Source: Nesterenkonia marinintestina (GTDB lineage: Bacteria > Actinomycetota > Actinomycetes > Actinomycetales > Micrococcaceae). Taken from it: 64,000 bases of DNA. The notes under the pieces were generated by a model. That model did no database searches. It had not been told where the DNA came from and was given only the letters and a program-made list of their open reading frames with translations. The stretch is from NCBI RefSeq assembly GCF_025420485.1, contig NZ_JAOEFD010000010.1, forward strand, positions 1 through 64,000. The letters run 5' to 3'. The first letter of the stretch is position 1. Each line of letters begins with the position of its first letter. This document shows, piece after piece, positions 37,936-50,582 of this stretch. Made by a program: the position numbers and the translations under genes.

Positions 37936-39360
37936 TCACCGGCGGCGCAGCTGGAACTGCGCGCCGTAGTGGTCCTCGGGCAGGTGGTCGCCGCGACCGA
38001 AGAGCTTCTGCCGCAGGGTGCCGGGCGTGTACTCCGTCTTGTACCGCCCCAGCCGCTGCAGCTCGGGGACCACGTGCTCGACGATGTCCTCGAACGTGCC
38101 CGGAGTGATGTGGTACGCCAGGTTGAACCCGTCGACGTCGGTCTCGTCCTGCCATTCGACCAGCTGGCGTGCGGCTGAGGCGCCGTCGCCGACGATCACC
38201 GGACCGAATCCGCCCACGCCGACCCATTCGGCCAGCTGACGCACCGTCCACGCCTCATCCTCCCGACCCGAGGCCTTCTGGAAGGTCTCCACGGTGGAGC
38301 GGATGGCGTTGGACTCGACGTCGCCGATCGGCTGGTCGAGGTCGAACTCGGAGAGGTCGATCCCCATCCACCCGGACATCAGCACCAGACCGCCCTCGGG
38401 GTCCACGTACTGGGCGAGGTCGTCGTACTTGGCCTGCGCGGCCGCCTCGTCGGCCCCGGTGACCACGGTCTGCATCGCGAAGATGCGGACGTCGTAGGCG
38501 TCCCTGCCGGCGTCGACGGCGGCCTGACGGATCTTCTGCACCGAAGCCTTCGCCAGCACCTTGGTGGGCGGATTGATGAACACCGCTTCGGCGTGCCGCC
38601 CCGCGAAGGCGCGTCCACGGGTGGAGGCTCCCGCCTGGTAGACCACGGGCATGCGCTGCGGGCTGGGCTCCACCACGGAGATCCCCGGCGTCCGGAAGAA
38701 CTCGCCCTCGTGCTCGATGCGGTGGACCTTCGACGGGTCGGTGAACACCCCGCGCTCCCGGTCGGCGACGACGGCGTCGTCCTCCCAGGAGGACTCGAGC
38801 AGCTTGTAGACCACATCCATGTACTCGTCGGCGTGGTCGTAGCGGCGGTCGTGCTCCATCTGTTCGTCCTGGCCCATGTTCTGCGCGGCCGCGGGCAGGT
38901 ACCCGGTGACCACGTTCCAGCCGACGCGGCCGCCGGTGAGGTGGTCCAGGGTGCCCAGCCGACGGGCGAAGGGGTACGGGTGCTCGTAGGCGGTGCCGGC
39001 GGTCAGGCCGAATCCGAGGTGCTCGGTCACCGCGGCCATCGCTGAGACGAGCAGGAACGGGTCGTTCACCGGGATCTGGGCCCCGGACCGCAGCGCCGCG
39101 TCGGGCGAGGCGTCGAACACGTCGTAGGGTCCGAGCACGTCGGCGATGAACAGTCCGTCGAAGAGACCGCGCTCGAGGGTCCGGGCCAGAGAGGTCCAGT
39201 ATCCGAGCGTGTTGTAGTCGCGGGCGCGGTCCTCGGGATGGCGCCACAGTCCCGGGGACTGGTGGACCACGCAGTTCATGTCGAAGGCGTTGAACAGGAT
39301 CTCTCGACCCGACTCGGTGCGGGCGGGCTGGGACTGCGGCTGGGGCTGCGTCTCGGTCAT
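37936..39360 (-). CDS. FMN-dependent monooxygenase of the DszA/DmoA/NtaA class, SAM-riboswitch controlled
   Basis: 474 residues. The class features are FNAFDMNCVVHQSPGLWRHPED (about 23-44), GLFDGLFIADVLGPYDVF (about 64-81), [24 protein letters not shown] (about 138-161), VVYQAGASTRGRAFAGRHAEAVF (about 238-260) and the C-terminal GFNLAYHITPGTFEDIVEHVVPELQRLG. The N-terminal MNCVVHQSPG-W and the length near 470 fit dimethyl-sulfide monooxygenase and dibenzothiophene-sulfone monooxygenase. Such enzymes use FMNH2 and O2 to cleave C-S bonds. The SAM-I aptamer upstream shows that it belongs to methionine/sulfur supply. The reductase encoded at 48597-49115 could serve it. Confidence 0.88.
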   Translation of the reverse strand: MTETQPQPQSQPARTESGREILFNAFDMNCVVHQSPGLWRHPEDRARDYNTLGYWTSLARTLERGLFDGLFIADVLGPYDVFDASPDAALRSGAQIPVNDPFLLVSAMAAVTEHLGFGLTAGTAYEHPYPFARRLGTLDHLTGGRVGWNVVTGYLPAAAQNMGQDEQMEHDRRYDHADEYMDVVYKLLESSWEDDAVVADRERGVFTDPSKVHRIEHEGEFFRTPGISVVEPSPQRMPVVYQAGASTRGRAFAGRHAEAVFINPPTKVLAKASVQKIRQAAVDAGRDAYDVRIFAMQTVVTGADEAAAQAKYDDLAQYVDPEGGLVLMSGWMGIDLSEFDLDQPIGDVESNAIRSTVETFQKASGREDEAWTVRQLAEWVGVGGFGPVIVGDGASAARQLVEWQDETDVDGFNLAYHITPGTFEDIVEHVVPELQRLGRYKTEYTPGTLRQKLFGRGDHLPEDHYGAQFQLRRR

Positions 39361-39401
39361 ATCTCCTCCTGCAGATGCTCAGCCGATAAAGGGCACCGCA
39401 G

Positions 39402-39430
39402 GAACGGGCGCGTCGCACGACGCCGTTCCG
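39402..39430 (-). terminator. Terminator hairpin in the expression platform of the first SAM-I riboswitch
   Basis: GGAACGG and CGTTCC arms with inner GTCG/CGAC pairing form a hairpin 10 nt after the aptamer, followed on the minus strand by TGCGGTGCCCTTT. This suggests transcriptional attenuation when SAM is bound. Confidence 0.6.
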
Positions 39431-39439
39431 GGAGGACCT

Positions 39440-39531
39440 CCATCGGTCCTGGCGGTAGCACCCACCTGCGGGAGATCTCCCGTGGGTTGCTGCGGCGTCG
39501 TCGAGCCAGGTCTCTCAGCCGCTCTGGATGG
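39440..39531 (-). promoter_or_regulatory. SAM-I riboswitch (S-box) upstream of flavin monooxygenase
   Basis: On the minus strand CCATCCAGAG, GCTGAGAGACCTGGC (kink-turn region), GACGACGCCGCAGCAACC, then GGTGGGTGCTACCGCC and GGACCGATGG closing P1. This is the complete SAM-I core. It differs from the riboswitch at 44517-44608 at a single base in 92 and lies in opposite orientation. A likely -10 (TAGGCT) is at 39542-39547. Confidence 0.95.
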
Positions 39532-48587: not shown

Positions 48588-48596
48588 GGAGGACCC

Positions 48597-49115
48597 ATGA
48601 CCACCACACACACCACTCGGACGTTCGATCCGCTGGCCCTGCGTGAGGCGTTCTCGCACTTCCCGCAGGGCGTGGTCGCCGTCGGCGCGGAGATCGACGG
48701 GGCACCCCAGGCCCTGGTCGCCTCGACCTTCACCGTCGGGGTGTCCCTGGAGCCGCCGCTGGTGAGCTTCGCCGTCCAGCACACCTCCCAGACGTGGCCG
48801 CGGCTGCGTCCGGCCCGGGCCCTGGGTGTCAGCGTGCTGGGGAGGGACCAGTTCGGGCTGTGCCGCCAGTTGGCGTCGAAGGACCGGGAGTCCCGGTTCG
48901 CCGGGGTCGACTACGCGGTCGACGACGAGGGCGCCCTGACCCTGCCCTCCAGCCCCATGTGGCTGGCCACCCGCATCTACGACGAGGTCCGCGCCGGGGA
49001 CCACGACATCGTCATCCTGGAGATCACCGACGTGGGCTCCGTCCCCGGCGCGGCGGGCATGGTCTTCCATCAGAGCTCCTTCAAGGAGCTCGCCGCCCTG
49101 GACCTGTCCGCCTGA
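48597..49115 (+). CDS. Flavin reductase (HpaC/DszD-like)
   Basis: 172 residues, 9 bp after the previous gene behind GAGGAGGA. The FMN-binding split barrel of the flavin reductase family shows FSHFPQGVVAVGAEIDGAPQALVASTFTVGVSLEPPLVSFAVQ near 16-60, GVSVLG near 80, and a His in the middle (GDHDIVILEI). Such enzymes reduce FMN with NAD(P)H and hand FMNH2 to a monooxygenase by diffusion. The monooxygenase gene follows 27 bp later, forming a two-component oxygenase; it can also serve the other flavin oxygenases of this region. Confidence 0.92.
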   Translation: MTTTHTTRTFDPLALREAFSHFPQGVVAVGAEIDGAPQALVASTFTVGVSLEPPLVSFAVQHTSQTWPRLRPARALGVSVLGRDQFGLCRQLASKDRESRFAGVDYAVDDEGALTLPSSPMWLATRIYDEVRAGDHDIVILEITDVGSVPGAAGMVFHQSSFKELAALDLSA

Positions 49116-49142
49116 GACCAGAGTGCCGATGAGAGAGGGCCA

Positions 49143-50582
49143 ATGACTGCACGCACCGAGAAGCCCCTGATCCTGTCCGCGTTCCTGATGAACACCACCA
49201 GCCACATCATCGGCGGGGCGTGGCGCCGGGAGTCCGCCGAGCAGCATCGGTTCAACGAGCTGCGGCACTGGACCGACCTGGTCCGTCGGCTCGAGGAGGC
49301 GGGCTTCGACCTGGCCTTCTTCGCCGACGTCGTGGGCGTCTACGGAGACCATGAGGGCGGATGGGCCTCCCACCTCCGCCGGGGCCTGCAGGTTCCGGCC
49401 AACGACCCGCTGGTGCTGATCTCTGCACTGGCGGCGGTCACCGACCGGATCGGTCTGGCGATGACGTCGTCGGTGATCCAGGCCCACCCGTTCACCTTCG
49501 CCCGTCAGCTCTCCACCCTGGACCACCTCTCCGGCGGACGGGTGGGGTGGAACGTGGTCACCTCCGCCACCGAGAACGCCCACCGCAACTTCGGAGGTGC
49601 GGGCCTGGCCGCCCACGGAGATCGCTACGACTGGGCGGAGGAGTACCTCGACGTCGCGTATCAGCTCTGGGAGGGCTCCTGGGAGGACGGCGCCCTGCTG
49701 GCCGACAAGACGCTGGAGCATGAGCGCGGGCTGGGGCTGCACGCCGACCCGACCAAGGTCGCGAAGATCCACCACCGGTCCTCCCGCTACGAGATCGAGG
49801 GGCCGCACCTGTCGTCGCCGTCGCCGCAGCGGACCCCCTACCTGTTCCAGGCCGGGTCCTCGGACCGGGGGCGGGAGGTGGCCGCCCGCCACGCCGAGGC
49901 GACCTTCTCCATGGCTCCGCGCCGCGACCTGGCCGCCGACCACGCCGCCGACGTGCGACGTCGGGCAGTCGCCTGCGGGCGCCGGGCCGAGGACGTGGCG
50001 TTCATCCAAGGACTGTCCTTCGTCATCGGCTCCACCGAGGCGGAGGCCCGGGAGAGGGCCGCCGACCTCGACGAGTCCCTGGACGTCCATGCGCTCATCG
50101 CGCATACTGCCGGGAGCCTGGGGGTGGATGTCGGCGGGCTGCCCATCGACACGCCGCTGGACGACCTCGAGACCGAGGGCGCTCAGGGGCACCTCGGCGA
50201 CATCCGGAGGATGGCGCCGAACGGGCAGGTCACCCTGCGTGACCTGGCCACGTTCCGCGCCGAGTCGACCCGCGTGGTGGGCACGCCCGAGCAGATCGCC
50301 GATGAGCTGGCCGCCTGGCGCGAGGCGGGCATCGACGGGATCAACATCATCAACTCGGAGATCCCGGGCAGCTACGCGGAGTTCATCGACCACGTGATGC
50401 CGGTGCTGCGTGAGCGCGGGCTGGCCCGCCCCAGTCCGGGGTCCGATGCGGCTCCGCAGACGCTGCGCGGTGCGCTCACCGGCTCAGACCGGCTGCCGGA
50501 CTCCCACCCGGCCGCCCGGTACCGGGGCGCGTTCACCGAGCACTCCGCGGCGGCGACGGAGTCGGCTCAGATCACGCCCTGA
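49143..50582 (+). CDS. FMN-dependent monooxygenase of the NtaA/DszA/DmoA class, partner of the adjacent reductase
   Basis: 479 residues. [20 protein letters not shown] at 10-29, [20 protein letters not shown] near 58-77, [25 protein letters not shown] near 128-152, [22 protein letters not shown] near 240-261, and the C-terminal [27 protein letters not shown]. The MN-TSH start and the sequence WNVVTS identify the class that oxygenates sulfones, thioethers or nitrilotriacetate. It is the fifth gene of the SAM-riboswitch operon and should release sulfide, sulfite or a thiol for MetY. The gene converges on gdhA with a 16-bp overlap. Confidence 0.88.

Follow-up and report, generated by a model that had tools for sequence, protein, structure and literature searches.

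Three riboswitches of the S-adenosylmethionine (SAM) class SAM-I head three operons of organosulfur and methionine genes in a stretch of 64,000 nucleotides (nt) of Nesterenkonia marinintestina (contig NZ_JAOEFD010000010.1, positions 1 to 64,000), which is called the window here. The first operon consists of LLM1, the gene of a luciferase-like monooxygenase (LLM). The second is formed by metN-metI-metQ, encoding a methionine-type ATP-binding cassette (ABC) transporter, and by the gene of a DszC/SfnB-like flavin monooxygenase, whereas the third contains acs, metY, a gene for a small coenzyme A (CoA)-binding protein, a flavin reductase gene and LLM2, which encodes a second LLM. The whole window was scanned with cmscan against Rfam, and three matches to RF00162 (SAM-I) were obtained with E-values from 6.7e-10 to 1.7e-8, all above the gathering score of 44.4 bits and each spanning the full model, positions 1–108. 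A search of the whole genome (2.58 Mb in 37 contigs, 99.73% complete, with the window on contig C2) returned these three sites as its only SAM-I sites. Chance matches are ruled out by the window scores, the genome search and the recurrence of such sites throughout the genus. The three SAM-I-headed operons had been proposed in an earlier note on this DNA, and that observation is confirmed (Table 1).

Riboswitches 2 and 3 are divergent, with 264 nt between them, and both lie directly before their genes: the ATG of metN, at 44118, follows 5 nt past the aptamer, and the GTG of acs 12 nt past it. Riboswitch 1 lies 76 nt upstream of LLM1 in a switching leader of a 'far' type, in which the start codon is not abutted and which is also found before LLM1 at four other loci of the genus. 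Riboswitches 1 and 3 are identical at 94 of 98 positions and have the P3 loop in common, so that one of them was probably copied recently from the other. The alignment of 21 sites with RNAalifold yielded 19 pairs in P1, P2a, P2b and P3 together with the conserved core; double changes occur in three pairs, the rest being invariant or nearly so, and 49 columns are invariant.

Table 1. Features of the three SAM-I operons and the SAM-IV riboswitch of the same genome. Scores are in bits; FMNH2, reduced flavin mononucleotide; R1, covariance model built from 21 sites.
Feature	Position	Strand	Evidence and remarks
SAM-I riboswitch 1	39437..39534	-	RF00162 54.8; model R1 96.2
SAM-I riboswitch 2	44124..44249	-	RF00162 51.8; abuts metN start codon
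SAM-I riboswitch 3	44514..44611	+	RF00162 50.0; abuts acs start codon
LLM1, predicted FMNH2-dependent luciferase-like monooxygenase, DmoA-like	37936..39360	-	TIGR03860 549 (cut-off 279.7)
SfnB/DszC/MsuC-like flavin monooxygenase, acyl-CoA dehydrogenase fold	40404..41663	-	TIGR04022 (SfnB) 263.8 (cut-off 430.9)
metQ, substrate-binding lipoprotein	41663..42550	-	PF03180 188.8, above cut-off
metI, permease	42602..43264	-	best NCBIfam NF008049 (MetI) 196 (cut-off 212)
metN, methionine-type ABC transporter ATPase	43264..44118	-	best NCBIfam TIGR02314 261, below cut-off 499.7; PF00005
acs, acetyl-CoA synthetase	44624..46741	+	TIGR02188 732.2 (cut-off 724.95); best PDB matches acetyl-CoA synthetases
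metY2, O-acetylhomoserine sulfhydrylase	46738..48066	+	TIGR01326 577.9 (cut-off 495.1); best PDB match 7kb0
Small CoA-binding protein	48063..48587	+	PF13380 137.6
NAD(P)H:flavin reductase	48597..49115	+	PF01613 97.7; proposed FMNH2 supplier
LLM2, second luciferase-like monooxygenase	49143..50582	+	TIGR03860 455.5
SAM-IV riboswitch	L168 10727-10859	-	92.5 (cut-off 38); 48 nt upstream of metY1 (metY1-metX)

The gene assignments of the earlier note agree with the NCBIfam, Pfam and PDB matches, with some refinements. Its acyl-CoA ligase is indeed a CoA ligase, now specified as an acetate-CoA ligase by passing the curated cut-off of TIGR02188. For its DszC/SfnB-type flavoprotein SfnB gives the best score, but membership of SfnB had to be rejected at the score of Table 1, as had membership of DszC (NF043015, 123.2 against a cut-off of 850 bits); the nearest PDB matches are TdsC (122 bits) and a methanesulfinate monooxygenase (117 bits). 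The monooxygenase that was called DszA/DmoA-type (LLM1) and the second monooxygenase (LLM2) both fall in TIGR03860, the NtaA/DmoA subfamily that also contains nitrilotriacetate (NTA), ethylenediaminetetraacetate and DszA-type enzymes, and only LLM1 is DmoA-like.

The best PDB match of LLM1 is the dimethyl-sulfide monooxygenase DmoA (6ak1, 523.6 bits), to which it is 52% identical across 449 aligned residues. Twenty binding positions have been proposed for DmoA by alignment with the alkane monooxygenase LadA (PMC9259527); LLM1 keeps 17 of them, while LadA keeps 13. At the seven positions where DmoA and LadA differ, LLM1 carries the DmoA residue at five. The likeliest reaction of LLM1 would be the conversion of dimethyl sulfide (DMS) into methanethiol and formaldehyde, and DMS degradation in Arthrobacter, a relative within the family, is cited in PMC9259527. 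Compared with the DmoAB system of Hyphomicrobium, LLM1 differs in being under SAM-I control, in having the flavin reductase in another operon and in being known from sequence. LLM2 was rejected as a DmoA, because it is 39% identical and keeps 13 of the 20 positions, no better than LadA. Its best PDB match is a hexachlorobenzene dehalogenase (6lr1, 437 bits), and its homologues adjoin metNIQ in many genera. As a guess, this HcbA1-type dehalogenase may derive from a metNIQ-linked organosulfur oxygenase.

SAM-I sites are present in all 30 genomes of the genus, 120 in total, and DNA stretches covering every one of them were examined; two fall below the Rfam cut-off and score 65.7 and 68.1 bits with model R1. 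First genes were identified by comparing the translated DNA with reference proteins taken from the window and the loci, and NCBIfam was applied to representatives. They encode an SsuB-type ATPase at 25 sites, a flavin reductase at 23, MetN at 22, a DszC-like protein at 15, LLM1 at 10, a sulfite-reductase-like protein at 6, Acs, an OsmC-like protein and LLM2 at 3 each, a sugar-type substrate-binding protein at 2, and SfnG, DszC and an SsuA-like protein at one each, with 5 sites giving no reference match. The SsuA-like representative passes TIGR01728, and the SfnG, found under SAM-I in one genome of the genus, is over the TIGR04021 cut-off (601.5 vs 383 bits).

At 56 of the 120 sites the operon includes an oxygenase of LLM, SfnG or DszC-like type, and 28 of the 30 genomes have a SAM-I operon with an oxygenase. 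The automated chain found 27 of them, including G002 on matches of 29–37% identity; G003 was added on inspection (DszC-like and LLM), since the chain was interrupted there by a gene without reference. No oxygenase was found in the SAM-I operons of the other two genomes, G015 and G020. Moreover, 24 of the 30 genomes place metY in a SAM-I operon (25 sites), and six place sulfite reductase with CysH in one. The order acs-metY-CoA-binding-flavin reductase-LLM2 of the window recurs in one further genome (G028), and in most others the order is flavin reductase-acs-metY-CoA-binding, LLM2 being located elsewhere. Divergent pairs of SAM-I sites, 119–350 nt apart, are common (36 pairs in 24 of the 30 genomes, making up 72 of the 120 sites). 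Some pairs within one genome, for example at L118, L122, L134 and 44124–44611 of the window, have identical P3 loops, which hints at copying between operons. At three loci (L147, L150 and L161), in three genomes, SAM-I heads an OsmC-like gene and a sodium/solute symporter.

Outside the genus, relatives of LLM2 were taken from a named collection, with 80 loci kept of 290; the choice by LLM2 biases this sample. A SAM-I site was found in 43 of the 80 loci, of which 34 lie outside the genus, in Arthrobacter, Glutamicibacter, Paeniglutamicibacter, Rothia, Yaniella, Enteractinococcus, one Brevibacterium, a metagenome-assembled genome of Micrococcus and other Micrococcaceae. Each of these 34 loci has at least one SAM-I operon with an oxygenase, and 43 of their 53 sites head such an operon. 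The other 37 of the 80 loci, from Curtobacterium, Microbacterium, Nocardia, Gordonia, three Brevibacterium and others, gave no SAM-I match, and in the seven of these that were scanned with Rfam no class of SAM riboswitch appeared. Within the order, RF00162 is present in 113 of 248 sampled genomes; among 31 sites from 20 hand-picked stretches of 16 of these genomes, mostly high-scoring sites, an oxygenase homologue stands in the presumed operon at eight, two of them being SfnG with 59–60% identity. Gene order in related genomes, which the earlier note had named as a check, thus bears out its idea: the coupling of SAM-I to organosulfur oxygenases, sulfonate-type transporters, metNIQ and metY is kept across genus and family. 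A further arrangement, of Arthrobacter/Glutamicibacter type (L053–L089), has SAM-I heading the genes of an ABC transporter of oligopeptide/nickel type together with DszC-like, LLM2 and small CoA-binding protein genes; its leaders are about 120–140 nt long and share a conserved stretch, reading TTGCTAGATTTCGCAACGGTC in several of them, that might fold into a hairpin with the P1 side.

The position of the start codons suggests how these switches would work. Among the 115 sites of the genus with a recognised first gene, 104 have an in-frame start codon 3–18 nt past the aptamer; counted over all 120, 11 have a farther or broken start and five have no recognised gene. By rough arithmetic, an in-frame start within 20 nt would be met by chance about one time in four. 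The aptamer ends in the conserved GATGG(A/G)(A/G)(G/A), which forms the 3' strand of P1 and would double as ribosome-binding site, and before metN a GGAGG at the 3' end of P1 probably plays this double role. Since P1 overlaps the ribosome-binding site and the start codon abuts the aptamer, translational OFF control is likely, in line with the earlier proposal that SAM switches all three operons off. A SAM-I riboswitch with the ribosome-binding site within P1 is a known design (PMC2258182), and actinobacterial riboswitches whose base stem overlaps the initiation site have been described (PMC1262725). In the Actinobacteria covered by the latter study, of 2005, methionine operons were not found to be preceded by conserved RNA structures (PMC1262725).

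Regulation by transcription termination, which is what the classical SAM-I sites of Firmicutes mostly perform (PMC2258182), seems improbable to us here: the 80–140 nt that separate the aptamer from the gene in leaders of Arthrobacter-type operons, and also before LLM1, speak for it, but a start codon 3–18 nt past the aptamer at 104 of 115 sites leaves no room for a terminator, and both overlaps just cited are described alternatives. All five 'far' LLM1 leaders contain a downstream stretch able to pair with the 3' side of P1. The pairing is CCGAUG-CAUCGG in the leaders of L133, L146, L142 and L113, with a longer rival pairing in L133 ranked above the CAUCGG, which was read by eye, and the window leader can form ten pairs including G-U. 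This suggests an anti-P1 element in the 'far' leaders, from five related sequences only. Outside the genus the start codon is abutted by only 24 of 52 SAM-I sites, so other platforms occur there.

The rest of the sulfur economy of the genome was surveyed as well. A second metY (metY1), whose product is 51% identical to that of metY2, adjoins metX on contig C33 and is headed by a riboswitch of another class, SAM-IV. SAM-I and SAM-IV therefore coexist in this genome and split its two metY genes between them. MetX passes NF001209 and is below the stricter cut-off of TIGR01392. MetX and MetY, on which a direct route from methanethiol to methionine would rest, are thus both predicted, and both are riboswitch-headed. 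By contrast with the control genomes, no match was found in this genome to PF01717 (MetE and kin; 10 of 14 controls match), to PF02574 (MetH, BhmT and MmuM; 9 of 14) or to PF01507 (reductases of 3'-phosphoadenosine- or adenosine-5'-phosphosulfate, PAPS/APS, and also CysD; 14 of 14).

Within the genus, PF01717 is matched in 19 of the 30 genomes (two MetE-like at more than 450 bits, seven near 110–135 and the rest at 22–44 bits), PF02574 in 22 and PF01507 in 14. PF01717 and PF02574 are both missing in three, namely the window genome, G025 (100% complete, which does match PF01507) and G010 (79% complete). The absence of two families at 99.73% completeness, shared with a second near-complete genome, speaks for true loss, a gap in the draft being possible. 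The weak MetE-like protein of L151 has HxC, E and DCG stretches, read by eye, which we take to resemble the zinc site of MetE. The weak PF01717 matches of the genus may therefore be real methyltransferases, with the window genome lacking even those. SAM-I sites also stand after a MetE-like gene, in opposite orientation, at L151 (9295–9405, minus strand, G011) and L152 (9667–9777, minus strand, G005); no sense gene was recognised downstream of them, yet an ATG follows within 10–12 nt, and at L075 of Arthrobacter mangrovi a related gene is preceded by a SAM-I site in the sense orientation. The sites at L151 and L152 may be either remnants or antisense controls of the kind that PMC2258182 cites for Clostridium.

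Taken together, we think that the three operons form a SAM-I riboswitch regulon that scavenges organosulfur compounds into methionine, a reading to which we give a probability of about 0.68. Plentiful SAM would stabilise P1 of each aptamer, and in operons 2 and 3 translation would stop through the overlap with the ribosome-binding site. At low SAM, MetNIQ, the flavin reductase, LLM1, LLM2 and the SfnB/DszC-like monooxygenase would be made. MetNIQ would take up methionine or a related compound, and the oxygenases, supplied with FMNH2 by the flavin reductase, would set free a fragment with reduced sulfur, probably methanethiol, from an organic compound. MetY2 would then join the thiol to O-acetylhomoserine provided by MetX, methanethiol giving methionine directly and sulfide giving homocysteine; fixation of the product onto O-acetylhomoserine, as the earlier note had it, would fit the gene set. 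MetY frees acetate, as described for the Pelagibacter enzyme (PMC5069961), so that acs in the metY operon would be well placed to recycle it; acetyl-CoA synthetase would recapture the acetate for MetX. The SAM response, the substrates and this recycling are what we infer from the genes and their arrangement.

The last step is the less certain part. With no homocysteine-methylating enzyme and no PAPS/APS reductase found, methionine directly from methanethiol is a live option, and it would be puzzling for SAM to govern two metY genes as well as metX if homocysteine led nowhere; there would be either a so far unrecognised methylating enzyme or a MetY that works directly from methanethiol. We hold direct formation to be somewhat short of an even chance. 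The most far-reaching version, in which a bacterium with neither a known methionine synthase nor sulfate reduction makes methionine by direct thiolation with methanethiol freed by oxygenases from DMS or a similar compound, its acetate being recycled by acetyl-CoA synthetase, with SAM-I governing the scavenging and SAM-IV governing metY1-metX, separately in evolution from the marine Pelagibacter and as a Micrococcaceae-wide organosulfur programme, we regard as doubtful.

Several results weigh against the scavenging regulon. The flavin reductase sits in the third SAM-I operon and not beside LLM1, and recombinant DmoA homologues, including DmoA1 of Hyphomicrobium, gave no methanethiol with the reductases tried (PMC9259527), so that the similarity of LLM1 to DmoA is a lead only. 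A protein of the homocysteine S-methyltransferase family is present in 22 of the 30 genus genomes, and the direct route cannot therefore be the sole reason for the regulon. Several relatives have sulfonate-type transporters and sulfite reductase in their SAM-I regulon, an arrangement that suggests release of sulfite as well, and metNIQ under SAM-I permits plain uptake of methionine. Local folding supports the switch at metN, where the unpaired probability of the ribosome-binding site is 0.20 with P1 forced and 0.57 without, but it goes in the opposite direction at acs (0.39 and 0.27) and does not separate the states at LLM1 (0.09 and 0.10); these proxies ignore tertiary structure and ligand and carry little weight either way.

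The main rival is a methionine auxotroph in which MetNIQ imports methionine, the oxygenases act on sulfonates or sulfones to give sulfite for cysteine, MetY2 makes homocysteine to be turned into cysteine by reverse transsulfuration, and SAM-I control senses sulfur status. The missing homocysteine methyltransferase match and the SAM-I control of metNIQ suit it, as do the SsuBAC-like sulfonate-type transporters under SAM-I in relatives and the other pyridoxal-phosphate enzymes of cysteine and methionine metabolism on contigs C34 and C36. However, the window genome has no SsuABC under SAM-I and no PAPS/APS reductase match, and it is difficult to see why two metY genes and metX should answer to SAM if no methionine can be made from homocysteine, for which reasons we consider the auxotroph rather unlikely, though a serious competitor. 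Far less credit is due to the idea that the flavin monooxygenases act on sulfur-free substrates, such as alkanes or chloroaromatics, and stand in SAM-I operons for some other reason. The hexachlorobenzene dehalogenase nearest to LLM2 among solved relatives and the 48% identity between LadA and LLM1 lend themselves to it, but SAM-I co-occurs repeatedly with metNIQ, SsuBAC-like transporters, SfnG, CysH and MetY, and LLM1 has DmoA and not LadA residues at most of the discriminating positions. We thus retain the scavenging of organosulfur into methionine as the preferred reading.

Parts of this regulon have counterparts elsewhere. The S-box regulon of Bacillus places SAM-I before metNPQ-type transporters and methionine genes, as here, mostly with transcription termination; to our knowledge its targets include no LLM or DszC-type oxygenases. 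A functional parallel is the marine Candidatus Pelagibacter ubique, which has no assimilatory sulfate reduction and whose MetY makes methionine from methanethiol and O-acetylhomoserine; metY, mmuM and bhmT are there under SAM-V and metX under SAM-II, with osmC in the regulon (PMC5069961). Both systems have a SAM riboswitch on metY, translational in Pelagibacter, and a second SAM class on metX, and an OsmC-like gene is headed by SAM-I at 3 of the 120 genus sites. The differences are SAM-I and SAM-IV instead of SAM-V and SAM-II, flavin oxygenases as the proposed thiol source instead of dimethylsulfoniopropionate demethylation, and no BhmT/MmuM-family match in the window genome.

Rhodospirillum rubrum also forms methionine from methanethiol and O-acetylhomoserine by MetY-type enzymes, and Rru_A0774/0784 and MetQ/MetN-like transporter proteins are up on methylthioadenosine (PMC4958253). 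Its methanethiol comes from methylthioadenosine via a cupin route, unlike here, and PMC4958253 mentions no riboswitch. MetY and methanethiol have likewise been connected in Corynebacterium (PMC7279501). The DMS pathway of Pseudomonas and Acinetobacter (Dms, SfnG, MsuC/D; PMC13352529) shares with the window the two-component FMNH2 oxygenases, a shared flavin reductase, and the SfnB/MsuC-type and LLM enzymes, but it runs through dimethyl sulfoxide, the sulfone and methanesulfonate to sulfite and cysteine and is induced without sulfate; riboswitches are not mentioned in PMC13352529. The earlier note had set riboswitch control apart from the usual protein control by SfnR and CysB. This contrast holds for Pseudomonas, as titles cited in PMC13352529 indicate, but Pelagibacter, which depends on organosulfur, already provides a case of metY under SAM riboswitches.

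The window contains other riboswitches beyond these operons. A third TIGR03860 monooxygenase (13386–14693, minus strand; 516.7 bits), whose nearest solved relatives are YtnJ/MoxC and NTA monooxygenase, follows a thiamine pyrophosphate (TPP) riboswitch (15527–15633, minus strand; 61.2 bits) and a short-chain dehydrogenase gene (14690–15481), so that the family seems to be under two riboswitch classes, SAM-I and TPP, within the window; one may guess at a role in thiamine salvage. A second TPP riboswitch (20284–20389, minus strand) lies upstream of a PF09819 permease component (19521–20195) and an ABC-ATPase/CbiQ fusion (17131–19524), a pair that presumably resembles the YkoE-YkoDC vitamin precursor transporter.

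The aptamer class, the platform and the chemistry of each enzyme type are already known, and what we did not find in print is their combination: no joining of a SAM riboswitch with monooxygenase or sulfonate genes appeared in the literature searched, a scope that leaves most subscription journals outside, and the main text of PMC3766115, on SAM riboswitch regulons of other groups, names no monooxygenase or sulfonate gene. Organosulfur desulfurisation would thus be tied to SAM demand by RNA, and not by sulfate-starvation proteins, across genus and family. Besides, the regulon offers hints of function for the large and poorly assigned families of LLM and DszC/SfnB-like oxygenases and for the small CoA-binding protein next to MetY. 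For the bacterium itself, it may mean a methionine supply without a recognised homocysteine methyltransferase, and direct capture of methanethiol, if true, would link this organism to the dimethyl-sulfide cycle.

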